DNA from: Bdellovibrio bacteriovorus
Lineage (GTDB): Bacteria > Bdellovibrionota > Bdellovibrionia > Bdellovibrionales > Bdellovibrionaceae
NCBI RefSeq assembly: GCF_002208115.1
Contig: NZ_CP020946.1
Coordinates: 3,162,001 to 3,226,000, forward strand
Direction of reading: 5' to 3'
DNA length: 64,000 nucleotides
This document shows positions 45,252 to 59,920 of the stretch, one piece after another (position 1 is the first letter of the stretch; each line of letters starts with the position of its first letter). Under the pieces are notes generated by a model. The model had not been told where the DNA came from, ran no database searches, and worked only from the letters and a program-made list of their open reading frames with translations. Both the position numbers and the translations under genes were made by a program.

Positions 45252-45908
45252 TTGAATGACTACTTATGTATGGGAAGAAACAGATTCATTTGTCATACGG
45301 AATTGCCATATCACATCACTGCTAGATGCATTAATCGCGATTGGTTTTCTGTCGAGCCAGAGAATGTCTGGAGAGTGATGACCACGCATCTGCACTTCAT
45401 ACATCTGGCATTTGGAATTCGAATTCATGCATTTGTTTTGATGAGCAACCACTTCCATCTGATAGCTTCAGCACCCAATGGCAATTTAAGTGAAGCAATG
45501 CGCTTCTTCATGTCGGAATCCGGAAGAGACCTTCGGACATTCAGCGAGCGAATCAACGTCACCTATGGATCAAGGTTTCACCGAAGTCTGCTGTCGAACC
45601 AGCTCTACTATCAACATGCCTATAAATACTTATATAGAAATCCGGTCATGGCGGGGCTTTGCGAAAGAGTCGAAGACTATCGATACTCGACACTAAGAAG
45701 TCTTCTTGGATTGGAAAAGATGGAGGTTCCCGTATGTGATGACACTCACTGGGAAACCTGGGGCTCACGGTTTGCCACCTTGGAGTGGCTAAATACGGAT
45801 CCCGGACACGAAGATTGGGAAAAGATTCAAAAAGGTCTAAGAAGAAGTGTTTTTAAAATCAGCCCCTATAAAAGTCGTCCATCCCATTTAGAAGTTGACG
45901 CGCTGTAG
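45252..45908 (+). CDS. REP-associated tyrosine transposase (RAYT)
   Basis: A 218-residue Y1/HUH nuclease of the TnpA_REP family. It has FVLMSNHFHLIA with the HxH metal site (about 66-69) and the tyrosine region YKYLYRNPVMAG (about 124-132). The frame begins with TTG at 45252; an ATG at 45270 is an alternative. REP sequences in opposite orientation lie on both sides, the arrangement of a RAYT-REP unit. It sits between the two flagellin genes. The enzyme nicks single-stranded REP DNA; most RAYTs are single copy and domesticated. Confidence 0.92.
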   Translation: MNDYLCMGRNRFICHTELPYHITARCINRDWFSVEPENVWRVMTTHLHFIHLAFGIRIHAFVLMSNHFHLIASAPNGNLSEAMRFFMSESGRDLRTFSERINVTYGSRFHRSLLSNQLYYQHAYKYLYRNPVMAGLCERVEDYRYSTLRSLLGLEKMEVPVCDDTHWETWGSRFATLEWLNTDPGHEDWEKIQKGLRRSVFKISPYKSRPSHLEVDAL

Positions 45909-58676: not shown

Positions 58677-58816
58677 TATCTATATATGAGCCCCAGAGGG
58701 CCTTTAGGAACAAACCGCAAGTTCCGCAGCAGTAGGTCCCGAAAGGGACCACGTCCGCGAGGATGTGTCCGAAGCGGTTTGGTCCTAAAGGCCCTCTGGG
58801 GCGCTCTATGTAGATA
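58677..58816 (+). ncRNA. Candidate structured RNA or leader with long inverted repeat
   Basis: Arms of 29 bp (58690-58718 and 58774-58802) match at 28 positions, and weaker pairing (TATCTA with TAGATA) extends outward to 58677 and 58816. Inside, two adjacent hairpins have GNRA tetraloops on the plus strand: GGTCCC-GAAA-GGGACC (58735-58750) and ACGTCC-GCGA-GGATGT (58751-58766). GGAAC (58707) and GTTCC (58721) could form a competing hairpin. It ends 12 bp before the GNAT start codon. It may be a regulatory leader, a free RNA or a DNA element. Confidence 0.55.
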
Positions 58817-58828
58817 TAAGGAGAGTTC

Positions 58829-59920
58829 ATGGAAGGACCTCGTTCCCCCCTGGAAGCTGAGCTTCCTCAGGTTCTGGATTTCCTCAATAAAAAGCTGCGC
58901 AATGATGCCTCTTGGTCCATTGCTGCGGAATATCCAACAGCCTTTTCCTCTAACAACTTGCATAATATGCGTATTATCGCCGATGAGGGCTCCGTACTAT
59001 CGCATGCGGTTATGAAACCTCTTATCATTAAAAGCCCCCATGTGATCTTCAAAGTGGGTGCGATTGGTTCTGTCGTCACCGACGATCAGCACCAGGGTCA
59101 GGGTTACAGCACCCAGATCATCAACGACTGTCTGAAATCCGCGACCGAGCAGTCCTGCGACATCGCGATTCTGTGGACGGACCTGTTTGATTTCTACCGC
59201 CGCATGGGCTTTGAATTGGCGGGATCAGAAGTCAGCTTTGTGATCGAGGAAAACTTTGATGTTCCGCCGATCAACCTGCGCTTCTCTACCGACAACAAAG
59301 TTTCCCCGGATGCGATTTACCGCCTGTACGCGGCTCATTCCGTCAACTCTGTGCGCACAATTGAAGAAACCAGAAAGTTCCTCTCAATCCCGCAAACCAA
59401 AGTATACACCGCCTGGGAACCAAGCGGTCAGTTGGCGGCTTATGCGATTGAAGGCAAAGGTGCTGATCTGGGTGGTTATATCCATGAATGGGGCGGCTCG
59501 GTTTCCAAACTGATGGCGCTGTTTGCATTTATCCGCGCGCAAAAAGATCAGCCTTACACGATCATCTGCCCACGCCATGCAACGAACCTGATTCAGGCTT
59601 TGCAAACCAAGGACGTGACGATGAATCACGGTTATCTGGGCATGATCAAGCTGGTGAACTTTGACCAGTTGGCGGCCAAGATCAAACGTGCGTTCCGCGC
59701 TGAAGGCATCGCCGACATCGTGCTGGAAAAACACCCCAACCACTTTGTCTTCGGAGTCGGTCAGGATCTTTACACCATCAACAACGAAACAGACATGGTG
59801 CGCCTGCTGTTTGGCCCGGTGGACTTCCGTGGTTTGGGCATCTTCAAGGAAGAAACCGCCATTAAACTTGAAAAAATTCTGCCACTGAATCTGTGGATCT
59901 GGGGATGGGACTCTATATGA
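58829..59920 (+). CDS. GNAT-family N-acetyltransferase
   Basis: A 363-residue protein. The N-terminal GNAT domain has IGSVVTDDQHQGQGYSTQII, the acetyl-CoA pyrophosphate loop (QxxGxG), and FYRRMGFELAG. The C-terminal 200 residues form a second domain, a layout reminiscent of Eis-like acetyltransferases. Substrate unknown. The AAGGAGAG ribosome-binding site lies just outside the long inverted repeat in the leader. Its stop overlaps the next start (ATGA). Confidence 0.85.
   Translation: MEGPRSPLEAELPQVLDFLNKKLRNDASWSIAAEYPTAFSSNNLHNMRIIADEGSVLSHAVMKPLIIKSPHVIFKVGAIGSVVTDDQHQGQGYSTQIINDCLKSATEQSCDIAILWTDLFDFYRRMGFELAGSEVSFVIEENFDVPPINLRFSTDNKVSPDAIYRLYAAHSVNSVRTIEETRKFLSIPQTKVYTAWEPSGQLAAYAIEGKGADLGGYIHEWGGSVSKLMALFAFIRAQKDQPYTIICPRHATNLIQALQTKDVTMNHGYLGMIKLVNFDQLAAKIKRAFRAEGIADIVLEKHPNHFVFGVGQDLYTINNETDMVRLLFGPVDFRGLGIFKEETAIKLEKILPLNLWIWGWDSI

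Follow-up and report, generated by a model that had tools for sequence, protein, structure and literature searches.

A dispersed family of long hairpins in Bdellovibrio and related genomes, with a conserved tip and stems that differ from site to site

Short intergenic multicopy hairpin repeats that are patchily distributed between species are represented in bacteria by the REP/BIME, ERIC, NEMIS/Correia and RPE sequences, some of which act as RNA. The attC sites of integrons, at which recombination takes place, are strand-asymmetric hairpins that vary in sequence but conserve certain unpaired features, and the skipping-rope motif is a structured non-coding RNA with a long closing stem. Template switching is known to create and maintain RNA hairpins, and hairpins maintained in this way in known RNA genes, with multi-base compensatory changes and inverted copies in their stems, were described by Monttinen and Loytynoja in 2022 (PMC8794818).

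Here we present the analysis of a very long hairpin from Bdellovibrio bacteriovorus, located in a 64-kb stretch of genomic DNA (in the following, the window). This hairpin is one copy of a real, uncatalogued and widely dispersed hairpin family. The best reading of the family is an unusual division of labour between a tip that is inherited and a stem that appears to be locally made and continually renewed.

The hairpin in the window

The window holds a single copy of the element, in the divergent intergenic region between a ferredoxin-like gene on the minus strand and a GNAT acetyltransferase gene on the plus strand. The features are, with coordinates of the window:

58677..58718, plus strand: 5' arm of the long stem, outer part AT-rich, inner part element-specific
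58677..58693, plus strand: outer part of the 5' arm, TATCTATATATGAGCCC, also found in the nearest empty site (kdesi)
58719..58729, plus strand: conserved 5' tip motif RAGUUCCRCAG; AGTTCC is exact in 123 of 125 elements
58735..58750, plus strand: variable apical hairpin GGUCCC-GAAA-GGGACC, compact class only
58751..58766, plus strand: second inner hairpin ACGUCC-GCGA-GGAUGU with a G.U pair; the hairpin is not conserved family-wide
58757..58773, plus strand: conserved 3' tip motif GCGAGGA(C/UG)UGUYYGAA, containing the family-wide GCGAGGA (58757-58763)
58774..58816, plus strand: 3' arm of the long stem, outer part resembling an inverted copy of the 5'-side promoter-proximal sequence
58829..59920, plus strand: GNAT acetyltransferase gene, the downstream neighbour, outside the element

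The initial annotation of this DNA, made from the sequence alone, had described an inverted repeat at 58677-58816 enclosing two adjacent hairpins with GAAA and GCGA loops, a possible G.U pair in the second, and ending 12 bp before the start of an acetyltransferase gene. This description holds in all parts: complementarity between the 29-nt arms (58690-58718 and 58774-58802) is 97%, weaker AT-rich pairing lengthens them to 58677-58718 and 58774-58816, both hairpins and the G.U pair are present at 58735-58766, and the ORF beginning with the ATG at 58829, 12 bp downstream of the element, encodes a GNAT protein (Pfam Acetyltransf_9, E 2.7e-13). Pairing of GCGAGGA(C) with GUUCCGC (58721-58727) competes against the second inner hairpin in this copy. 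The 171-nt plus-strand fold reaches -93.6 kcal/mol as compared to -50.1 +/- 4.1 kcal/mol for shuffles (z = -10.6), and the opposite strand also folds strongly (z = -10.45), so that folding energy alone does not choose between the strands.

When the genome was searched with the element, its arms matched nowhere else, whereas its tip recurred at several places, each time capping a long stem of differing sequence. A Y1 (RAYT-type) transposase domain is encoded within the window at 45297-45560 (G000:3207297-3207560), not near the element.

Extent of the family and anatomy of its members

A search with the tip pattern delivered long-armed elements at 11 more Bdellovibrio loci and on one Myxococcales contig; a Chloroflexi match (L019), in which long arms are absent, is probably due to chance. 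The initial annotation had proposed a covariance search of bdellovibrio genomes, and a model of the tip (R1) located copies in 23 of the 24 species of the genus Bdellovibrio. HD100 has roughly 20, among them those at 548259-548337 (minus), 1763002-1763079 (minus) and 2482052-2482129 (plus). The own genome of the window contains about 20 (20 with R1), every one verified individually as a long near-perfect hairpin; low-scoring matches there likewise turned out to be real when checked one by one. Two weaker matches obtained later are L136, a decayed copy without 5' arm in the own genome, and L137, probably a chance match. A broader model (R2) finds the family in at least 43 of 141 genomes of the order and at least 44 of 369 genomes of the phylum, both lower bounds because this survey used stricter filters; a Myxococcales MAG gave 11 matches to R2. 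The distribution across the phylum is patchy. The collected set comprises 125 distinct elements.

Rfam 15 returned nothing at the gathering threshold for these elements, and the miRNA and lncRNA matches far below it (searched to E 5 with the window and to E 1 with relatives) are attributable to chance, in agreement with the initial placement of the hairpin outside the known riboswitch and ribozyme classes. Phage, plasmid and viral collections contained nothing past chance-level matches of 23-25 nt, and an origin from phage, plasmid or virus is thus unsupported.

The family consensus is 5'-RAGUUCCRCAG-[variable]-GCGAGGACUGUYYGA-3', with a middle loop of greatly varying size. The heads fall into those with a 6-nt loop, compact heads with a small hairpin as in the window, heads with A-rich loops of up to about 70 nt (total head 65-100 nt) and a few multi-helix heads; the smallest measure about 30 nt (AGUUCCGCAGCAAAGCGAGGACUGUUCGAA). 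GNRA loops are no hallmark of the family: the GAAA loop is essentially unique to the window copy, and GUCC-GCGA-GGAC occurs in 33 of the 125 elements. For the conserved part the best fold pairs GUUCC(GC) with (GC)GAGGAC around a bulged A, so that the tip probably forms a short helix with an asymmetric internal loop beneath it. Because the tip positions hardly vary and give no covariation, this helix rests on modelling and on single variants, namely L160 (AGUCCC, U.G to C-G) and L246 (GUGAGGAC). The modelled helix keeps a T.G pair in nearly all copies.

A pseudoknot between RCAG and CUGY was rejected on account of counter-examples such as L111 (ACAG with CUGC). By eye, R-A opposite UGUYYGA is reminiscent of a kink-turn, in which tandem G.A pairs follow a three-nucleotide bulge; the loop of the elements is longer than that, and their second A is variable. 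On visual inspection alone, the tip also has some likeness to T-loops and to segments of 16S rRNA and RNase P. Two elements, L013 (7139-7250) and L024 (3113-3231), carry a structured insert of about 60 nt between GCGAGGA and CUGUYYGA, composed of a hairpin with an ATGATG loop, CCCGAAGGG and a third hairpin.

The arms are 15-69 nt long (median 34, 125 elements) and form a near-perfect stem which differs from site to site; stem pairs 11 to 27, counted from the tip, are almost all Watson-Crick. Within one Bdellovibrio genome the arms of different copies are unrelated past the innermost 1-2 bp. Copies in G076 and G066 have the tip and the innermost 8-16 bp in common while their outer arms are unrelated, so that the copied unit appears to be the tip plus inner stem. 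A simple MITE-like repeat with many exact copies, which the initial annotation had named as the outcome that would speak against its reading, is seen in half: the copies are many, but their common part is the tip only and their stems differ.

Concerted changes in the arms, strand asymmetry and genomic sites

Where orthologous sites have near-identical flanks, whole blocks of arm sequence have often been replaced without loss of pairing. Ortholog comparisons gave 1514 changes on both sides that still pair versus 98 one-sided changes and 217 broken pairs, counts from comparisons that share sequences and hence do not represent independent events; between L041 and L067 there are 17 paired double changes, 0 one-sided and 0 broken. 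An independent count over six orthologs lay above all 500 shuffles on every measure. The compensatory changes that had been named as support for a structured element are therefore present between orthologous sites, and the rod is conserved in its pairing and not in its sequence. Stepwise compensation via G.U should leave many more intermediates, and template switching that uses one arm as template for the other would explain the pattern.

The mismatches that do occur in the arms are unequally distributed. Across 106 elements, G.T outnumbers A.C by 80 to 20 and purine-purine outnumbers pyrimidine-pyrimidine by 126 to 22; when each orthologous site is represented by a single element, 26:6 (p = 5e-4) and 46:5 (p = 2e-9) remain, respectively. 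The surplus mismatches are tolerated on the motif strand and poor on the other, which shows that selection acts on the strand with the tip motif, the plus strand in the window. Plus-strand selection, initially read from the loops and the G.U pair, thereby gains family-wide support. Folded single-stranded DNA ranks mismatch stability similarly and tolerates the G-containing ones, so that the asymmetry alone is no proof of RNA; the selected molecule is likely RNA.

The GNAT leader was compared in 24 species. An element is present in the window genome, in HD100 (G001) and in G006, another one in opposite orientation is found in G021, and the leader is empty in the remaining 20. The HD100 copy has the same outer arm as the window copy with different inner arms and head. 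At the 3' end of pdxH, elements occur in G000, G001 and G006 and separately in G019, G014 and G008, while kdesi has an ordinary small terminator-like hairpin instead. Sites are thus gained independently and also lost. The region downstream of pdxH (L202-L225, from 24 Bdellovibrio species) is a hotspot of independent long hairpins. Two of these, L223 and L225, are equally long inverted repeats with quite different multi-helix heads, which suggests related families; L207 and L208 contain runs of N inside their palindromes, either assembly gaps at the hairpins or masked sequence.

Among 103 elements, 15 lie directly beside a tRNA gene, in every case tRNA-Leu or tRNA-Arg in convergent orientation, with the 3' arm entering the tRNA 3' end by 2-16 nt; several of the 15 are orthologous, so that the number of independent events is smaller. 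The adjoining tRNA end recurs, inverted and imperfectly copied, as the 5' arm of L130 and L083, and L253 enters the tmRNA gene by 24 nt and repeats the tmRNA 3' sequence GTTCAATTCCCACCG in its 5' arm. Since tRNA and tmRNA sequences are constrained, copying most likely proceeded from gene to arm. The elements adjoining RNA genes (L130, L083, L128, L257, L249, L253) were seen at the 3' ends of tRNA-Leu, tRNA-Arg and tmRNA only. The 3' ends of tRNA and tmRNA genes are classical integration sites.

For the window copy, kdesi is the nearest GNAT leader that lacks an element. Its sequence is similar to the outer 5' arm and, when inverted, to the outer 3' arm; kdesi may, however, have arisen by deletion and need not represent the ancestral state. 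The copies of flanking DNA seen at elements are inverted rather than direct, and these cases show that arms can hold inverted duplicates of the native DNA next to them.

In many copies the 3' arm comes to within about 20 nt of the point where an opposing gene, tRNA or tmRNA ends. In tandem contexts antisense orientation prevails by 28 to 10 (ORF-based, orthologs counted). Orientation against the leading strand amounts to about 15:5 in the own genome and about 14:6 in HD100, a hand tally that assumes an origin near position 1 and is inseparable from gene orientation. The elements are often preceded by 80-350 nt of mildly A/C-rich, G-poor DNA. A small separate repeat, AAAAAGGTGCCTGG.. or AGCAGGTACCTTTT, possibly REP-like, lies upstream of the elements L008, L064, L066 and L095, and a second, weaker inverted repeat, possibly a degraded element, is located 160-356 nt upstream of L118 (G000 about 1402246).

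Interpretation and comparison with known systems

The best explanation, to which we give about an even chance, is a dispersed strand-specific hairpin with selection on RNA of the motif strand, an inherited tip and a stem that template switching builds and renews. A tip carrying a short inner stem would found a new copy; template switching during replication would then build and repeatedly re-perfect the outer stem, with the other arm or the flank serving as template for an arm. The selected molecule would be RNA transcribed off the motif strand, a capped double-stranded rod that may act in cis at transcript boundaries, a role proposed because many copies come within about 20 nt of the place where an opposing gene, tRNA or tmRNA ends. 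More tentatively, and with clearly less than even confidence, the family can be seen as a new kind of minimal selfish or functional nucleic-acid element. In this view nothing but a tip of about 30-100 nt and its short inner stem would spread; each copy then builds a long stem from local DNA by template switching, keeps it perfect by arm-from-arm copying and is selected as RNA of one strand.

An RNA-strand cis element at transcript boundaries is favoured over a single-stranded DNA mobile element, which is a serious rival although we consider it rather unlikely. The motif strand would then fold as single-stranded DNA and serve as substrate of a recombinase, transposase or repair pathway, and the mismatch asymmetry would be that of folded DNA. 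Independent gains at the same places (the GNAT leader in opposite orientation, pdxH in several lineages), the preference for tRNA-Leu, tRNA-Arg and tmRNA 3' ends, the patchy distribution and the mostly antisense orientation (28 versus 10) all fit such an element, as does the result that sigma-70-like promoters are not enriched upstream on the motif strand. A mobilising enzyme does not emerge from the genomes: reverse transcriptase (RVT_1) is absent from the own genome and from 20 of the 24 genus genomes, and a retron or other RT-based element was rejected, as no association was seen among the genus genomes; Y1 transposases occur in the element-free G022 and are absent in the element-bearing G002, G011 and G014, and those of the own genome lie near none of its copies, so that a REP/RAYT system was rejected as well. 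The phage, plasmid and viral searches, the T.G pair that nearly all copies retain in the modelled helix and the larger multi-helix heads of several copies also argue against mobile DNA.

The elements could instead be trans-acting small RNAs, each with its own promoter and with the rod as a processing or stability handle. Motif-strand selection, the many copies per genome and the A/C-rich, G-poor DNA often found upstream agree with this, but the promoter signal just mentioned is absent, the copies differ upstream (no common sequence apart from paired elements and the one small separate repeat) and the rod sequence is different at every site. None of the eight tabulated HD100 attack-phase sRNAs (PMC3627812 Table 2) coincides with a copy found in HD100. 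We regard such sRNAs as improbable.

Still less probable are neutral palindromes, that is, existing hairpins which replication template switching keeps perfecting and extending without any selected function. Concerted arm replacement, the inverted copies of flanking tRNA and tmRNA DNA and the decayed copy L136 would follow directly, but neutral templating offers no reason for a strand asymmetry of the mismatches or for a near-invariant tip across families and in a second phylum. Least probable is the riboswitch-like leader of the acetyltransferase gene proposed initially: the window element does sit between a promoter-like region and the ATG, but 20 of 24 species have no element in that leader, the neighbours of other copies are unrelated genes, tRNAs and tmRNA, mostly in antisense orientation, and the suggested GGAAC/GUUCC switch is not conserved across the 125 elements, GGAAC being present in only two 5' arms.

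If the reading of a strand-specific hairpin with inherited head and locally made stem is true, the family provides a new natural example of a structured element that spreads while staying paired, and with more than 100 examples a natural system for direct measurement of concerted hairpin-arm evolution. It would add a widespread uncatalogued hairpin family to the predatory bacteria and could account for very long inverted repeats beside tRNA and tmRNA genes which annotation leaves unexplained.

Like REP/BIME, ERIC, NEMIS/Correia and RPE sequences, the elements are short, intergenic, multicopy, hairpin-forming and patchy between species. Those repeats conserve and copy their ends or stems, whereas the present family conserves the tip and has a stem that is largely local to each site; shared terminal inverted repeats of the MITE/NEMIS type were not found, the arms being unrelated past the innermost 1-2 bp (Bdellovibrio) or 8-16 bp (G076, G066). 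By general description the elements resemble attC sites in being hairpins of variable sequence with conserved unpaired features and strand asymmetry, but conservation in attC lies at the stem ends and here at the tip. A long variable stem combined with a conserved part recalls ncRNAs of the skipping-rope type, although the Rfam families gave no credible match. With the hairpins maintained by template switching in known RNA genes (PMC8794818) the family shares multi-base compensatory changes and inverted copies in the stems; it differs from them in that long rods are replaced between close relatives while the common tip stays.
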